Positions 12,245 to 26,163 of a DNA stretch of 28,650 bases are shown here, piece after piece (position 1 is the stretch's first letter; each line of letters opens with the position of its first letter). A model generated the notes under the pieces. That model was given only the letters and a program-made list of their open reading frames with translations. It was not told the origin of the DNA and ran no database searches. The stretch lies in IMG/VR virus record IMGVR_UViG_3300000956_000134, positions 1-28,650 of that record. One strand, written 5' to 3'. This DNA is from a virus. The position numbers were made by a program, and so were the translations under genes.

Positions 12245-14377
12245 TCATTGCGCGAGCAGTTCATCCAGAAGAAGCGTACCACGACGCGCTTCATTATTCG
12301 AGCCACGTTCTACAATCGGCGCAGCCGTGCAGCGGCAGTTGATCGTGTTCCCGCCCGAAGCGCCGTGCGTATGGTCGCCCGGCACGTCGAGCAGTTCGCC
12401 ATCGACGAGGAACAGGTCGTCGAGGTCCACCACCTGTCCATCGGCATCCACGTGACCGGGTCGGACCAACTCGTCGCCCGCCGTGACCCATTGCTTGCGT
12501 TGCACGACGCCGCTCTGCCGCCACGCCTCGCGCGCTCCCTTGTTGTAGGCGGAAACCGTCTCGGTGCGCACGATCTTGTTGGCCTGATTCGCGTAGTGCT
12601 CGCCGAACACCTCGCGAACGCGCGCGATCAATTCGGCCGATGTCTCGTGCGCCGACATGCCCTCGTTGATCGAGTCGCGAATGACCATGCTCAGGGAGTG
12701 CGTCGTCCCGGTGATGACCAGTTCGGCGCGGTCGTCGAGCCACTTCGCCGTCTCGCTGTGCTGCAAGTTAAACGTGATGCGCAGGCCAAGGTCCTGAATC
12801 TCCTGAATGGCAGCCCCGGCGAGCACGCGTCGCATAAACTTGCGGATGAGTGTTCGATCGCCGGTCGTCGCTTCTAGGAGATGGTCGGTGTCAATGGCCG
12901 CGCGCATCACGCTCGCGCTCGCATGTACATCGTGATCCGTCGCGGCTCGCCTGAGCTTTGCCACAACGCGTTTCATGCGGGCCTCGTACAGCTTGCGCAC
13001 GCCCGCACGCATCACCTTTTCCTGCGTGCTCACGCGCGCGTCTCGCGTGGCGCGAAGTTCCACGGTGACAGCGGCCGTGGTCTTGCTTGTGGGAGCGGGG
13101 CCTTCCGGCTTGGCGGTCATCGCCGCGCTGATTGCCTTCCGTGGCTTTGGAGAGTCCCCGGTCGGCCCCATCGGTTGCGCTACAGGCTTCTCATACAGTT
13201 CGTCGTGTTCCTCGCCGTCCAGCGGCTCACGTTCGAGAATGTCGCGCCCCTCATTCGGAGCGAGCACGGCCCGATCACACGCCTCTTTCACACCCTTCGC
13301 TTTCTCAAGGAACTCAGCGATTTGGGTGGGGTCGCGGTCGTAATCGAATGCGCACTTCCATCCGAATCCGAACTCGCCTTGGTGCAACCGATCGTCGAGC
13401 AGGCGCGCGTTGATGACGCTCGCGATCTTGGACCCAAGCGGCTTGCGACACAGGTGCAGGTAGAGCGACAGATCGACCTTCGCCCCGGCGTCCGAGAGCG
13501 AGCCGCCTTCCTTGATGCCCATGATCCACGGCGGAACCTTGTAGATCATGCAGATTTGGGCGTTCGTCCAGTTCGACGTTTCCAAGAATTGCATTTCTTC
13601 CTGCGTCAGCCCGGTGCGCTCGTACTTGATGTTGCGCGGCAGCACGACCGGCTTCCCGGCGCGCCGCTGCGCGAGCATCGTCTCCTGCACCTTCTCGCGC
13701 TCCGCTTGGGTCAGGCCGTCCTCGTTCGTGAAGTAGCCGCTGACCAGCCCGCCCGACGAGTAGAAGTTGTCGATCCAGCGGTCGGCGTTGCGCGACACGC
13801 GCGTGACGAGCATGGCGACCTGCAACGGCGAGAGGCCGAGCATGCCGTTGTCGGGCGCATACATGCGGAAGTGAAGAATCTGCCACGCCGGGATGACCCA
13901 TTCCTTCCCATCGGCGAGCGTGACCACGTAGCGATCGGGCACGAGGCCGTCGCTCGACTTCGGGAGCACGATGTTGCCCGGCAGGCAGCGCAACTCCTGC
14001 GGCACCTTCGTGCCCAAGTAGTCGAGGAACACGTAGCCGTTGCCGTTGATGAGCAACGAGCCGACGATCTGACCCATGAGGTCGTTGCCGGTGTCGAATG
14101 CGTTCCCATACGAAAAAAGCCACGCAGGGTTGCCCTTGCGTGGCTCGGCTTCCTTTTCGTTCTGAGAGAACAGCAGCGGCGTGCCCGCGATGGAGTCTTG
14201 AATGCGCGAGACGCATGAGTACACGGTGGGCACAAGCTCGAACGCGCGCGGCAAGCTGATGCGTTCATCGTCGAGCCGGTTGACCATGATGCTCGGAGTC
14301 GCGCCGAGGTACGGCGGCGGGCCGGACTCTCCTGCGGCTGCGCTCAGAGCAAAGTCCAACAAGTGACGCATGCCCAC
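12245..14377 (-). CDS. Portal protein fused to a Mu gpF-like head morphogenesis domain
   Basis: This is a 710-residue protein. The N-terminal 430 residues read as an HK97-type portal: ELVPTVYSCVSRIQDSI near the start, NGNGYVFLDYLG, IPAWQILHFRMYAPDNGMLG, the stem region with RNADRWIDNFYSSGGLVSGY, and PPWIMGIKEGGSLSDAGAK. After a Lys/Pro-rich linker, the last 270 residues read as the Mu gpF-like minor head domain, with IVRTETVSAYNKGAREAW, a Gly/Asp segment and the closing NTINCRC. The two are separate genes in many phages. The start is set at GTG 14377, with GGAGGG 10 nt upstream; a TTG 18 nt earlier lacks a ribosome site. The ring it forms is the DNA entry gate. Confidence 0.92.
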   Translation of the reverse strand: MGMRHLLDFALSAAAGESGPPPYLGATPSIMVNRLDDERISLPRAFELVPTVYSCVSRIQDSIAGTPLLFSQNEKEAEPRKGNPAWLFSYGNAFDTGNDLMGQIVGSLLINGNGYVFLDYLGTKVPQELRCLPGNIVLPKSSDGLVPDRYVVTLADGKEWVIPAWQILHFRMYAPDNGMLGLSPLQVAMLVTRVSRNADRWIDNFYSSGGLVSGYFTNEDGLTQAEREKVQETMLAQRRAGKPVVLPRNIKYERTGLTQEEMQFLETSNWTNAQICMIYKVPPWIMGIKEGGSLSDAGAKVDLSLYLHLCRKPLGSKIASVINARLLDDRLHQGEFGFGWKCAFDYDRDPTQIAEFLEKAKGVKEACDRAVLAPNEGRDILEREPLDGEEHDELYEKPVAQPMGPTGDSPKPRKAISAAMTAKPEGPAPTSKTTAAVTVELRATRDARVSTQEKVMRAGVRKLYEARMKRVVAKLRRAATDHDVHASASVMRAAIDTDHLLEATTGDRTLIRKFMRRVLAGAAIQEIQDLGLRITFNLQHSETAKWLDDRAELVITGTTHSLSMVIRDSINEGMSAHETSAELIARVREVFGEHYANQANKIVRTETVSAYNKGAREAWRQSGVVQRKQWVTAGDELVRPGHVDADGQVVDLDDLFLVDGELLDVPGDHTHGASGGNTINCRCTAAPIVERGSNNEARRGTLLLDELLAQ
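14113..14145 (-). terminator. Terminator-like hairpin inside the portal gene (sense strand)
   Basis: On the coding strand AGCCACGCA pairs with TGCGTGGCT around an AGGG-CAA-CCC core with one bulged base, and six T follow at once. This is the form of an intrinsic terminator, placed about 80 codons into the portal frame. The bases code for EPRKGNPAWLF, so the protein reads normally through it. Whether it terminates when ribosomes lag is not known. Confidence 0.5.
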
Positions 14378-14384
14378 GGCTGTA

Positions 14385-14495
14385 TCACCCTCCAAGATAG
14401 AGGCGAAGTCGATCGCTGAATCTACGACGCGAGCTTTGCGTTACGTCGCCGTCGATTCTTCGGTCGGGGCTTCGCCGTACGCGCAAGCCTTTCAC
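14385..14495 (-). CDS. Possible 36-residue basic peptide between terminase and portal
   Basis: GTG at 14495 follows the terminase stop by 10 nt, with CGAGGG a few bases upstream. It opens a 36-codon frame rich in Arg (MKGLRVRRSPDRR ... RRRFSDRLRLYLGG) that ends just before the portal start and overlaps its ribosome site. It fills an otherwise empty gap. Nothing is recognised, and the short length and high Arg content typical of GC-rich non-coding DNA make it doubtful. Confidence 0.4.
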   Translation of the reverse strand: MKGLRVRRSPDRRIDGDVTQSSRRRFSDRLRLYLGG

Positions 14496-19019: not shown

Positions 19020-19519
19020 CGCTCACGTTCCTCGCTGCGCGGCACGGAGCAGCGGCAGTTGATTATCTCCTTGGGCTCGAAGTAGGCGACCTCCTTCAAT
19101 GCTCGCGGCGAAAACGCGCCGTGGAATCGAGCGCGCTCGCGTTCCGCAAACCCGCGTAGCTCATTTTCCGTGAACACCGGCCGGTCCCACTCGTTCCATC
19201 GCATCAGGTTAAGCTTGCGCGCTCGCGCTTCGCTCAACGCGAGATGGTCCGACACCGCCATCTGAGTTTCTATGAGGCGCTGCATTGCCGGTGACATGCC
19301 ATGCACGTAAGGGACGACGCGGCCGGGTACTCGGGGTTTTGGTTGAACAGGTTTGCTTGCTCGGAGCCGTCGCGCAGCATTTCGGCACGCGCGCCACAGC
19401 AGCTTGATCGTTTGAACAATGCCGAAGCCGTATGAGCCGGTGGGGGCATACACCACGGGCTGCACACTGGCATCTTCCTGCTTGGATCGCACCAGCACAT
19501 CGCGCCTCTCCATTGGCAT
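19016..19519 (-). CDS. Unknown basic protein ending in a Mu gpF-like INCRC motif
   Basis: This is a 167-residue protein, basic in the middle (RRLRASKPVQPKPRVPGR), then largely helical with MQRLIETQMAVSDHLALSEA. It ends EIINCRCSVPRSEERER. The INCRC ending matches the close of the gpF-like domain on the portal protein (NTINCRC), and 15 bases are identical between the two genes (12329-12343 and 19049-19063). It may be a degenerate or separate minor head protein. The start overlaps the previous stop as TAATG, and its own stop overlaps the next start as GTGA. Confidence 0.6.
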   Translation of the reverse strand: MPMERRDVLVRSKQEDASVQPVVYAPTGSYGFGIVQTIKLLWRACRNAARRLRASKPVQPKPRVPGRVVPYVHGMSPAMQRLIETQMAVSDHLALSEARARKLNLMRWNEWDRPVFTENELRGFAERERARFHGAFSPRALKEVAYFEPKEIINCRCSVPRSEERER

Positions 19520-19698
19520 TACAGCCCCCGACCGCTCCGGTCAACAATGCGCCATCCCGACCACGCCACGAGCACTACAAACCCGATGGCGAGCGCGGCC
19601 CACCAGCAATAGACGACCAGCAGAATGAACGTCACCGCGCACGCCGCTAAGCACGTCGCGATCACCACGCGCGCGAGCGCATCGAGGAACCGCGTCAC
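19519..19698 (-). CDS. Small membrane protein with two hydrophobic segments
   Basis: This 59-residue protein is read from GTG 19698, overlapping the upstream stop as GTGA. After TRFLDALARV come two hydrophobic stretches (ATCLAACAVTFILLVVYC and ALAIGFVVLVAW) with a WW between them, ending basic (RIVDRSGRGL). This topology suits a small inner-membrane protein, and a holin is conceivable. No family recognised. Confidence 0.6.
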   Translation of the reverse strand: MTRFLDALARVVIATCLAACAVTFILLVVYCWWAALAIGFVVLVAWSGWRIVDRSGRGL

Positions 19699-19916
19699 TT
19701 CGCATTCTCGGTGCCGGGCGGGCCGGGCATCTGCCGCCACAATGGGCCGCAGGCACCGTACTCCATCGACCACAGCGTACCATCGTCACACAGCGCAACC
19801 ATGTCCATGAATCCAACGCCCTCGATCGCAACGACCTTCCGCACCGGCTGGCTCGCAATGTTGAGCGAGCCGACCGTGCTCGGATCAGCGGGCGTGTTCG
19901 GAATCCCGAGGCTCAT
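19695..19916 (-). CDS. Small protein with DGTLW / MPGPP motif (single propeller-blade type)
   Basis: This 73-residue protein starts at ATG 19916 (ATGA overlap with the upstream gene). The centre MVALCDDGTLWSMEYG and the end WRQMPGPP form a strand-DG-turn-strand-Trp motif like one RCC1 or propeller blade. The protein at 27336-27554 has the same pattern (VAVCEDGTLW ... WTRIPGPP), and the one at 23707-23931 has a more distant version. Likely a small family spread through this genome. Function unknown. Confidence 0.65.
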   Translation of the reverse strand: MSLGIPNTPADPSTVGSLNIASQPVRKVVAIEGVGFMDMVALCDDGTLWSMEYGACGPLWRQMPGPPGTENAK

Positions 19917-20107
19917 CGGTGTATCCCCCGGCAGTCTGGATCGTGGATCGCCACGGGGTAGCCAATACCCTTGACCACGAGATAGTGGTGGTCGCGCAAG
20001 TCGAATTCTTCCGCAACCTCCGGGCCGCGACCGGCCCCGCAGCCGAACGTGATGGCAATGGCGACCAGACATCCCCACATCACCCATGCGAACGTTCGCT
20101 TGCTCAT
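19913..20107 (-). CDS. Small putative lipoprotein or membrane-anchored protein
   Basis: This 64-residue protein starts at ATG 20107, with an ATGA overlap on both sides. The N terminus MSKRTFAWVMWGCLVAIAIT is a basic start plus hydrophobic stretch, followed by FGCGAG, a weak lipobox with Cys at about 23. The remainder (EFDLRDHHYLVVKGIGYPV) is short and would lie outside the membrane. An outer spanin is possible by shape, but no partner was found. Confidence 0.6.
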   Translation of the reverse strand: MSKRTFAWVMWGCLVAIAITFGCGAGRGPEVAEEFDLRDHHYLVVKGIGYPVAIHDPDCRGIHR

Positions 20108-20343
20108 CCGACGCCTCGCATGAACCCGCTCTGGCACTGGCGCACGACGCCTTCCCATGACGACGCCGCGCCGACGACCACGTACTGCGTCACCGGCACC
20201 CACGGCTTCGGCGGGCGCTTCGTGATGTACGCGACGCACTTCCCACCGATGTGCGCGCAATGGATGCGATGGCCCGCCCGCTCGCCCTTCGTGACGATGC
20301 CGTGATGCTGGCGAATGAGGTTCACGGCTTGCTTTCGTCTCAT
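20104..20343 (-). CDS. Small basic unknown protein
   Basis: This 79-residue protein starts at ATG 20343 (ATGA overlap). A longer frame would begin inside the previous gene without a ribosome site. It begins MRRKQAVNLIRQHHGIVTKG, contains a His/Cys cluster (HRIHCAHIGGKC) and a beta-like middle (WVPVTQYVVVGAAS). The His/Cys cluster could bind metal. It lies in the coupled small-gene chain. Function unknown. Confidence 0.6.
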   Translation of the reverse strand: MRRKQAVNLIRQHHGIVTKGERAGHRIHCAHIGGKCVAYITKRPPKPWVPVTQYVVVGAASSWEGVVRQCQSGFMRGVG

Positions 20344-20657
20344 GGTGTCTCCGGGGGAACGAAGTTGATTGGCTGGCAATTGTGGAATCGGTCGTATCGT
20401 TTGGCTCGCGCATCGAACTTCGCTTCTTGCAGTGCCGCAACCCGGTCGGCCTTATCGCGGTCAATCATGCCAGCACCGAACTCCATGCCGATCGGATCGT
20501 CTCGATAATCCCACACGCCGCCGAACTGTTCGGTGCCATCCTCGTTCTGCACGATCTCAAGAGCGAGGCCGCATGGATGAAGGAACAGGCGGTTCAACTC
20601 CTGTAGCAACCCAAGCTCGCGGAATTCTTTGATGGACATGTACTTGATTTCGGTCAC
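20340..20657 (-). CDS. Unknown acidic protein
   Basis: This 105-residue protein starts at GTG 20657, which overlaps the upstream stop as GTGA and has GGAGG 8 nt before it. Sequences: MSIKEFRELGLLQELNRLFL, a segment ALEIVQNEDGTEQFGGVWDY, then DKADRVAALQEAKFDARAKR. The LHPCGLALEI...GVWDYRDDP pattern looks like a compact beta unit followed by a helix. Phage proteins of this build are common and uncharacterised. No function assigned. Confidence 0.7.
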   Translation of the reverse strand: MTEIKYMSIKEFRELGLLQELNRLFLHPCGLALEIVQNEDGTEQFGGVWDYRDDPIGMEFGAGMIDRDKADRVAALQEAKFDARAKRYDRFHNCQPINFVPPETP

Positions 20658-20821
20658 GAGTACGGCCTCCATTCCAGCTTGATGCATGTGTGCCCAATGC
20701 GTTTCATCTGCCACATGGCCCACAGCGCGGCCAGCATGTTGTTGCCCGCGTATCGCTCTCGATACGCCCATGTCGATTGGGTGATCTGCATCCACACCGA
20801 TACGGTTAACGGATGGCCCAT
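20654..20821 (-). CDS. Short conserved-looking protein, first gene after the structured RNA
   Basis: ATG at 20821 with AGGAG five bases upstream opens a 55-codon frame that ends in a GTGA overlap with the next gene. It reads MGHPLTVSVWMQITQSTWAY, then YAGNNMLAALWAMWQMKRIG and IKLEWRP: Met/Trp-rich and amphipathic. The good ribosome site, the coupling and the non-random composition support a real gene. It is the first gene downstream of the candidate leader RNA, so would be its direct target. Confidence 0.65.
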   Translation of the reverse strand: MGHPLTVSVWMQITQSTWAYRERYAGNNMLAALWAMWQMKRIGHTCIKLEWRPYS

Positions 20822-20838
20822 CACATCTCCTTTTGAGG

Positions 20839-20958
20839 TCGGGGAGAGTTGTCAGCTTGGGCTCGCACGTTACACCGATAACGAGCTAGGCCAGTCCGCG
20901 CGGCAAGCCAATCGCATGGCTCCCGGCCCACCATTGGCTGTTATTTCTCTCTCCCCGA
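20839..20958 (-). ncRNA. Candidate structured leader RNA or riboswitch-like element
   Basis: The 141-nt gap between genes folds on the transcribed (minus) strand. TCGGGGAGAG at its 5' end pairs perfectly with CTCTCCCCGA at its 3' end (10 bp). Inside are two arms: AGCCAAT with ATTGGCT around a GC-rich loop, and CGTTA with TAACG around a TCGGTG loop, extended by GCT/AGC. This makes a three-way junction. The closing helix ends about 18 nt before the ATG of the next gene and 6 nt before its AAAAGGAG ribosome site, so folding could control translation. It matches no class I recognise; a tRNA is excluded by the arm lengths. Confidence 0.5.
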
Positions 20959-20962
20959 TTCA

Positions 20963-21292
20963 TTACCGCAACCGCCCGCGTGAGCGCACGTACTCGGCGA
21001 GGTCGTTTGCCTCATCCTGCGTGAGCGCCACGCTGCACATCCTGAGCTTGATGCCGTTGACGAATTCTTCGCGGCGCTTCTTTGCTTCCGACGCTGCACG
21101 TATTGCCTGACCGGCCTTGTAGTCCAGCATTTCCTGCCCGGTCAGGATCACGATGTCCATGTCGGTCATCAGCGCTACAAGGTCAGCGCCTAGGGGCACC
21201 GAGAGGCGCACCGAAATATCACGCAACTGCGCCTCGGGTGGCTGGCCGCGAAAGACCGAACATGTATGGGTGACGGTAGCTTCGACAATCAT
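20963..21292 (-). CDS. Unknown protein, strand-rich N terminus and C-terminal helix
   Basis: This 109-residue protein starts at ATG 21292 (ATGA overlap). Strands (MIVEATVTHTCSV, RDISVRLSVPLG, MDIVILTGQEML) lead into a helical part with KAGQAIRAASEAKKRREEF and a final LTQDEANDLAEYVRSRGR. The last helix resembles LTDEEAEYCLKRIRER of the next upstream protein, and both open with MI(V/H)E. The two may be distant paralogues. It is the last gene before the candidate leader RNA. Confidence 0.65.
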   Translation of the reverse strand: MIVEATVTHTCSVFRGQPPEAQLRDISVRLSVPLGADLVALMTDMDIVILTGQEMLDYKAGQAIRAASEAKKRREEFVNGIKLRMCSVALTQDEANDLAEYVRSRGRLR

Positions 21293-23029: not shown

Positions 23030-23415
23030 GGGGCTTCATCCTCCAACGGTGCCTCGGGCGGCGCTTCGTTCTCGATGACCTCGGCGCTGCTCGGTGGATT
23101 GGGATTGAACGTCGGCGGCGGTTGAAAATCTCTGATCTCAATGAGCTTCGGCGTCATCACTTCCTCGATGTTTGCGATGGCCGACAAGCGCGGCTGCCCA
23201 TAGCGATCGAGCAAGTCATTCGCAGCGGCCTTGCGATCCGCTGGCGAGTAGCGATCGTCCTCCACGAAGTGCACGAGCAGTTGCACGCATTTGTCGATGG
23301 CCCTGATACCACGTCTGCGCGCACGTTCTTTGAGTGCCGCGAGCCGCTTACTCCTGAGCCCCGCCGGAAGGGTCGAGGGCGTCGTCTGAATGTTGGTGTT
23401 TGGTTTTGTCGCCAT
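23026..23415 (-). CDS. Small terminase subunit-like protein (tentative)
   Basis: This 129-residue protein starts at ATG 23415, with AAGGA 8 nt upstream. An ATG 9 nt earlier sits too close to that site. The basic helix RSKRLAALKERARRRG is followed by CVQLLVHFVEDDRYSPADRK and AAANDLLDRYGQPRL. The pattern of an LV..V.D helix, R.AAA..LLDR, then YG.P is familiar from phage proteins annotated as terminase small subunits or related unknowns. The tail is Pro/Glu-rich (PPEAPLEDEAP). It overlaps the HTH gene by about 68 nt and lies 7 kb from terL, so this call is uncertain. Confidence 0.5.
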   Translation of the reverse strand: MATKPNTNIQTTPSTLPAGLRSKRLAALKERARRRGIRAIDKCVQLLVHFVEDDRYSPADRKAAANDLLDRYGQPRLSAIANIEEVMTPKLIEIRDFQPPPTFNPNPPSSAEVIENEAPPEAPLEDEAP

Positions 23416-23644
23416 CTTCGTCATCCTTGACGAGCGAGCGGAGTCGTTCGATTTGGTTGGTCAGAGCACGCTGCCTGTGGCTCGCGATGAACTCGTTCCA
23501 TGAGTCGCGCGGCACAAGCATACGCCCACCGATGCGGGTCACTGGAATCTCACCGTCGCGGATGAGGCCGTAGGCGCGGGAGGTGGAGATGCCGAGCAGC
23601 GAGGCGATGGCTCGTACGGTGAGGAAAGGGCTTGCATCGGTCAT
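23348..23644 (-). CDS. Excisionase-like / HTH_17 DNA-binding protein
   Basis: This 98-residue protein has a winged HTH of the excisionase/MerR-like type at about residues 6-55: FLTVRAIASLLGISTSRAYG, LIRDGEIPVTRIGGR and LVPRDSWNEFIASH. The C-terminal tail is acidic and His/Asp-rich. It is the first gene of the leftward small-gene chain, at the divergence point, so a control role on one or both promoters is plausible. The ATG has no Shine-Dalgarno, and a -10 candidate lies 9 nt upstream, which suggests a near-leaderless message. Its fold is sure; the role as Xis or repressor is not. Confidence 0.85.
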   Translation of the reverse strand: MTDASPFLTVRAIASLLGISTSRAYGLIRDGEIPVTRIGGRMLVPRDSWNEFIASHRQRALTNQIERLRSLVKDDEDGDKTKHQHSDDALDPSGGAQE

Positions 23645-23706: not shown

Positions 23707-23931
23707 ATGAGTGACGGCAAGAAAGACGATGTGGCGAACCCGAGCGCATTCCCGAACTCGATTCAGGCTCCCGGCACGGTGGACGCGGCGGCGCTCAAGT
23801 CGAGTGGCGAGGTCCACATGGTCAGCCTGACGAACGTGGGCGGGCAGTTGTACGGCGTGGATGCCGATGGGCGGTGCTGGAAGCGCGAGGGAGGTCGGGA
23901 GTGGAAGCGCATCAAGAATCCGGTCGTCTGA
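23707..23931 (+). CDS. Small protein of the DG/Trp single-blade family
   Basis: This 74-residue protein is the first rightward gene, with GGAGG 7 nt before the ATG. After a polar N terminus (SDGKKDDVANPSAFPNS) comes VHMVSLTNVGGQLYGVDADG and then RCWKREGGREWKRIKNP. The strand, G(Q/T)L(Y/W), DG and final W.(R/K)(I/M).(G/N)P recall the proteins at 19695 and 27336. It overlaps the next small gene. Function unknown. Confidence 0.7.
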   Translation: MSDGKKDDVANPSAFPNSIQAPGTVDAAALKSSGEVHMVSLTNVGGQLYGVDADGRCWKREGGREWKRIKNPVV

Positions 23932-25478: not shown

Positions 25479-26041
25479 ATGGAATCACCTGTTTCATCGC
25501 CACGGATTCAGGCCGCGCTCGCGTGAGCCTGCGCCGCTACTCGCCGCGCCTCGCATGTCAGTCCTCGCCGCTCGGCTACCACAACATCAAGGTTCCGATC
25601 GACGTGGTTGCGAGCCCGTTCAATTCGGACCGACGCGAGTACTACCACGATCCCTACCCACGCCCCGAGAAGGACGACCCGCGCTGGCCGAGCCGGTGTA
25701 GATGCGGCTACGATTTCTCGCTCAGTGATGACGACCAGATTTTCCACGAGCAGTTGTACCGCTACGAGACTGGGAAGATGGTCCAGATCGGCACGCAGGA
25801 CGAACTCCCGGCCGGTGCCATGATTCAGGCGCTGTGGGTGCCGAACACATGGGTTGGCGAGGATGGGCGATCGTGGCTCGTGAGGCTGCCGGGCGGCGAG
25901 GAATGGCTCATCGACGCGCCCGCGAGCGACGGCGGGAGGTGGAAACGCACCGGCAACGCGCCGCAGTTCACGGTCGAGCCATCAATCCTCACGCCCAAGT
26001 ATCACGGATGGCTCAGGAATGGCGTACTGGTCCCTGCATGA
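25475..26041 (+). CDS. Conserved unknown phage protein with CxC motif
   Basis: This 188-residue protein is read from GTG 25475 (GTGA overlap). The middle has PSRCRCGYDFSLSDDDQIFH and QLYRYETGKMVQI; the second half is WVPNTWVGEDGRSWLVRLPG, GEEWLIDAPASDGGRWKRTG. The sequence reads as a well-kept protein with strong Trp and Asp usage, the type annotated as hypothetical in many phages. The CRCG motif may hold metal. It is the last gene before the terminator. Function unknown. Confidence 0.75.
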   Translation: MNGITCFIATDSGRARVSLRRYSPRLACQSSPLGYHNIKVPIDVVASPFNSDRREYYHDPYPRPEKDDPRWPSRCRCGYDFSLSDDDQIFHEQLYRYETGKMVQIGTQDELPAGAMIQALWVPNTWVGEDGRSWLVRLPGGEEWLIDAPASDGGRWKRTGNAPQFTVEPSILTPKYHGWLRNGVLVPA

Positions 26042-26072
26042 GCAAGCGCATGGGACGCTGAAACGCATTGAA

Positions 26073-26105
26073 CCCCGCGAGGTAAAGGAGAAAACCCTCG
26101 CGGGG
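26073..26105 (+). terminator. Strong hairpin terminator between convergent operons
   Basis: CCCCGCGAGG pairs perfectly with CCTCGCGGGG across a 13-nt A-rich loop, and CTCTTTGCTTTG follows on the plus strand. It lies 32 nt after the last rightward gene and 59 nt before the end of the leftward one. The T-run is interrupted, but the 10-bp GC helix is strong; it could serve both directions. Confidence 0.8.
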
Positions 26106-26163
26106 CTCTTTGCTTTGTTCGGGCTGGAACGGCGCGGATACTGCCGCATCTCGCCGCGCGCTG

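Follow-up and report, generated by a model that had tools for sequence, protein, structure and literature searches.

A candidate cis-acting mRNA structure in an intercistronic gap of a tailed phage

Results

Gene context of the gap

The window, by which we mean the whole stretch of DNA analysed (a 28,650-base IMG/VR record), comes from an uncultured tailed phage whose terminase, portal/head-morphogenesis fusion and major head protein are encoded on the minus strand. The portal and MuF-like head-morphogenesis domains appear to be fused in one 716-aa frame (window 12245-14395, minus strand). The region considered here is a 141-nt non-coding gap on the minus strand (20822-20962), which runs from the TAA stop codon (20963-20965) of P0001, a 109-aa gene that belongs to no family (20963-21292), to the ATG at 20821 of a 55-aa gene (20654-20821) assigned to phrog_10015 (function unknown, E = 1e-11). 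As both flanking genes lie on the minus strand, the minus-strand transcript is the relevant one. The 55-aa gene is the first of six minus-strand genes (19519-20821); it is followed, with a 4-nt overlap, by a phrog_3954 gene (20340-20657) and by four further small genes (20104-20325, 19913-20107, 19695-19916, and 19519-19698). Overlaps of 4 nt occur at four of the five junctions, so that the chain as called, and the description of it in an earlier note on this DNA as a coupled small-gene chain, is plausible.

The gap is conspicuous amid these 4-nt overlaps. In the mapped part of the window no other clear gap between well-supported genes is as long (the rest are about 122-134 nt), and the non-coding character of this one agrees with what the earlier note had proposed; that it is also the largest in the window is only probable, because the simple gene model resolves 0.8-5 kb, 19.3-19.5 kb, and 21.3-22 kb poorly. 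No sigma-70-like site was found in a promoter and terminator scan of 17.8-28.6 kb, and no minus-strand intrinsic terminator (a short hairpin with a U-run) was found within the gap. An excisionase-type HTH gene (23348-23644, minus strand) stands first in the minus-strand chain and is separated by 62 nt from a divergent plus-strand gene (23707-23931); this interval is probably where the operon is regulated.

The gap contains a 37-codon open reading frame (20821-20934, minus strand) that could encode a 37-aa protein coupled to the next gene, since its end forms a TGATG overlap with the start of the 55-aa gene and a purine-rich GGGGAG lies upstream of it. Its codon score, however, is -0.27 per codon, close to the median of non-coding frames (-0.31) and below the fifth percentile of coding segments (+0.06), and its GC3 of 0.57 falls short of the 0.68-0.85 of the training genes. 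Searches of PHROG, NCBIfam, and phage sequences (tblastn) returned no match to it. Because its codon usage falls in the non-coding range, we rejected the reading of the gap as a small gene, which we regard as improbable; the gap at 20822-20962 is probably non-coding.

The inverted repeat and its predicted fold

The gap holds a perfect inverted repeat, TCGGGGAGAG / CTCTCCCCGA (20839-20848 / 20949-20958), which matches at 10 of 10 positions across a 100-nt spacer, so that the perfect 10-bp closing helix noticed earlier is indeed present. In the minus-strand transcript, the 5′ arm of this helix, P1, is UCGGGGAGAG (20949-20958), which itself resembles a Shine-Dalgarno sequence, and the 3′ arm is CUCUCCCCGA (20839-20848), which contains UCUCC (20843-20847). 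The Shine-Dalgarno sequence of the phrog_10015 gene is AAAAGGAG (20827-20834), which together with A20826 (20826-20834) includes a GGAGA that is complementary to UCUCC and able to pair with the 3′ arm. Four nucleotides separate the upstream stop codon from the 5′ arm, and another four separate the 3′ arm from AAAAGGAG; the element thus lies just ahead of a ribosome site and of the ATG at 20821, as had been described.

P1 is predicted to pair with a probability of 0.84-1.0 in the isolated element RNA, and averages about 0.98-0.99 in all flanking contexts and temperatures modeled, which supports the view that the gap transcript would form P1. Two further helices had been drawn inside P1. One is well predicted, as the hairpin GCUCGU...GCGAGC (20861-20886, minus strand), whose GCUCG/CGAGC pairing has a probability of about 0.89. 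The other, AGCCAAU/AUUGGCU (20933-20939 / 20906-20912), is a real complementarity with a pairing probability of only about 0.065, and enforcing it to give the junction that had been drawn costs 2.7 kcal/mol relative to the optimal fold, so that the three-way junction is not supported in that form.

The fold of 20839-20958 (minus strand) is more stable than that of shuffled sequences (z = -3.45, with lower values in just two of 238 non-overlapping tiles), where the end points of the tile were picked by the helix; a slightly larger frame around the element gives z = -2.0. When P1 was fixed and the interior shuffled, the real interior was average (z = -0.32, 36% of shuffles equally stable), so that P1 accounts for the whole excess of stability. 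The lowest fold z in the window (-3.64, minus strand) belongs to the tile of another hairpin, CCCCGCGAGG...CCTCGCGGGG (window 26042-26163), between convergent genes that end at 26041 (plus strand) and 26164 (minus strand); it is followed on the plus strand by a T-rich stretch and is probably a terminator.

Perfect repeats of at least 10 bp with a spacer of at most 150 nt are common in this DNA: the window contains 13, or 17 when unmerged, vs. 12.9 expected from dinucleotide shuffles. Within this particular gap, a perfect 10-bp repeat is rare by the same kind of shuffling applied to the gap itself (P = 0.0048).

Predicted accessibility of the Shine-Dalgarno sequence

The GGAG of the ribosome site is predicted to be unpaired with a probability of 0.72 when the 5′ arm of P1 is present and of 0.01 when it is absent; upon removal of the 5′ arm, UCUCC pairs with GGAGA at about 0.9. 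The two pairings are mutually exclusive in the computed folds; the prediction thus includes a second pairing by which the ribosome site is hidden, as expected of an mRNA element that controls a Shine-Dalgarno sequence. A comparable loss of the site was seen in 0.4% of gap shuffles, and in 0.9% when a change of 0.7 or more was counted, figures that come from a switch test devised after the sequence had been seen and from a threshold set just under the observed 0.72. The alternative pairing is, moreover, partly compositional, because the 5′ arm of P1 is purine-rich like any Shine-Dalgarno sequence.

A terminating ribosome covers about 9 nt after the stop codon. When the 9 nt past the upstream stop codon were treated as covered, the predicted unpaired probability of the site fell from 0.48 to 0.004. 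With more flanking RNA in the model, formation of P1 left the site only 0.21-0.48 unpaired, and the accessibility of the start region of the phrog_10015 gene is ordinary among the genes of this phage.

Search for homologues and known RNA classes

The Rfam search suggested in the earlier note was carried out and yielded nothing at gathering thresholds; the best hits at E ≤ 10 lay far under the gathering scores, so that no credible family match emerged even at that cutoff. A homologous gap was sought in phages, IMG/VR, plasmids, and genomes by DNA, by flanking proteins, by a terminase profile, and by the helix pattern; neither such a gap nor a close relative was found, among records from which those very near the window may be missing. 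The gap DNA showed no similarity to phages or plasmids; searches of IMG/VR by the flanking proteins and the terminase returned nothing, or just terminases about 30% identical; and the closing-helix pattern matched once in IMG/VR, at a REP-like palindrome pair, which is about the number expected by chance. A tblastx comparison of the window with the compared loci gave noise owing to sum statistics and was discarded. No phrog_10015 match was found in about 700 bacterial genomes, where the controls gave none either, making that search uninformative.

Homologues of the phrog_10015 protein, about 31-43% identical, occur in Klebsiella, Gordonia, Arthrobacter, and Rhodococcus phages and in IMG/VR contigs. 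In the upstream sequences that were read from Klebsiella, Proteus, Arthrobacter, and Rhodococcus phages and from the IMG/VR contigs, the gene before the homologue runs right up to it or overlaps it. The one gap among the homologues whose upstream sequence was read is in the Cozz-group Gordonia phages, where 77 nt with a strong hairpin (GAGGCGGGG...CCCCGCCTC) precede the gene; other Emalynvirus members carry a small gene at that position. As these homologues are without an equivalent leader, the leader does not regularly accompany the phrog_10015 family.

Discussion

Translational control or a chance helix

Our best explanation, a tentative one, sees the gap as an ordinary intercistronic structure that would act in cis in the minus-strand mRNA and control translation. 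P1, a G+C-rich 10-bp helix, would form once its 3′ arm is transcribed and would hold the anti-Shine-Dalgarno strand UCUCC off the site at which ribosomes bind ahead of the phrog_10015 gene. A spacing of about 20 nt is reported to almost abolish re-initiation (PMC10666635); the gap is too long for it, so that the downstream chain would need its own start site and would start independently, without re-initiation across the gap. If the 5′ arm were occupied, for example by a ribosome that terminates at the stop codon of the upstream gene, 4 nt distant, the 3′ arm could pair with GGAGA and close the site. The near-complete predicted pairing of P1, the loss of the open site (0.72 to 0.01) in the absence of its 5′ arm, the small fraction of shuffles (0.4-0.9%) that behave alike, and the codon usage and conspicuousness of the gap all point in this direction. 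Against it stand the lack of any homologue in our searches, and with it of any sign of selection, the homologues of the downstream gene that have no leader, the post hoc nature of the switch test, the compositional share of the pairing, the partial opening (0.21-0.48) with flanks, and the ordinary accessibility of the start. The non-coding gap, P1, and the mutually exclusive pairing come from computation, whereas it is inferred that the pairing occurs in the cell, that it would affect translation, and that selection would keep the structure.

By our best guess, this structure and a helix that arose by chance in a spacer are roughly equally likely. The latter reading takes the gap as an ordinary intergenic spacer, such as the remnant left by the loss of a small gene, in which the Shine-Dalgarno sequence is a standard one and the RNA has no function. 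It is consistent with the number of unmerged repeats in the window (17 vs. 12.9), P1 being one of roughly 13 that would arise from composition alone, with an interior no stabler than its shuffles, and with the failure to find homologues. In Gordonia Emalynvirus, a 77-nt gap stands at the corresponding junction in some phages and a small gene in others, which indicates that such gaps come and go. What speaks against chance is the rarity of such a repeat in this gap (P about 0.005), a fold that only two of 238 tiles exceed in stability, and the presence of a gap at all within a tightly overlapping gene chain. As matters stand, this single instance mainly illustrates how often composition yields long perfect helices in a G+C-rich phage. 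If the structure is real, it would be a compact case of translational control by RNA structure within a densely packed phage operon, possibly of unusual sign, with upstream translation repressing the next gene.

Less probable readings

That unusual sign would follow from negative translational coupling, in which a ribosome terminating upstream melts P1 and the freed strand hides the next Shine-Dalgarno sequence; as a specific form of the cis-acting control, it is unlikely.

The gap might also act as DNA, as two inverted operator-like sites or as a small mobile or REP-like element, but we consider this doubtful. The arms are inverted 10-mers, and TCGGGGAGAG occurs in REP-like doublets of Dyella, Sphingomonas, and Hymenobacter. 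Only two exact copies exist in the phage, however, and one-mismatch copies match expectation; the arms are without the self-complementary partner found in REP-like units, no sign of a target-site duplication can be seen, and searches of phages and plasmids turned up no other copy. Inner palindrome partners and further copies, sought as marks of a REP-like doublet or MITE, were not found, and the mobile-element reading was rejected for want of a duplication and of copies. In genome contigs, the TCGGGGAGAG...CTCTCCCCGA pattern matched 70 stretches, where the estimated chance number is under ten; most among the matches listed are REP-like doublets, CCCTCTCCCC-TCGGGGAGAGGG and the inverse, in Hymenobacter, Dyella, Sphingomonas, and others, with a layout that differs from that of the gap.

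Slightly less credible still is a bridge, in which P1 would fold out the spacer so that the stop codon of the upstream gene comes to lie close to the next Shine-Dalgarno sequence, for a handover of ribosomes. P1 starts 4 nt past the stop codon and ends 4 nt short of AAAAGGAG, which favors a bridge; a ribosome terminating there, however, would sit on the base of P1, in which case the model predicts a closed site and not an open one. In a screen as cited by a review (PMC12548453), predicted structure right after the stop codon was negatively correlated with coupling.

Least likely of all is the riboswitch-like, ligand-sensing leader of the earlier note, with a new aptamer between the arms of P1: a P1-closed domain that precedes a Shine-Dalgarno sequence and competes with it through an anti-Shine-Dalgarno strand is the general layout of translational riboswitches, but the interior has no excess stability, no Rfam similarity, conservation, or homologous gap was found, the homologues of the downstream gene have no such leader, and no recognizable metabolic gene lies downstream, so that the proposal is not supported.

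Comparison with known systems

With the cis-acting reading, the element may be regarded as a single modest candidate for tuning the translation of the next genes, and it can be set beside three systems. The Cozz-group gap is likewise a structured gap directly before a gene of the phrog_10015 family, but its sequence is unrelated and its hairpin is compact, strong, and missing from other Emalynvirus members. As in translational riboswitches, one strand is predicted to pair exclusively either in the closing helix or with the Shine-Dalgarno sequence; here, however, no conserved aptamer, ligand, or set of homologues is recognized, and the element sits between phage genes of unknown function. The RNA-unfolding model of coupling, exemplified by MS2 coat-lysis and E. 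coli rpmI-rplT (reviewed in PMC12548453), resembles our element in that a structure lies between two genes, close to where ribosomes bind for the second, and could be opened by a ribosome arriving from upstream. In the present case, opening is predicted to hide the downstream ribosome site and not to expose it, and this sign, opposite to that of the usual RNA-unfolding coupling, would be the sole unusual aspect of the gap element.
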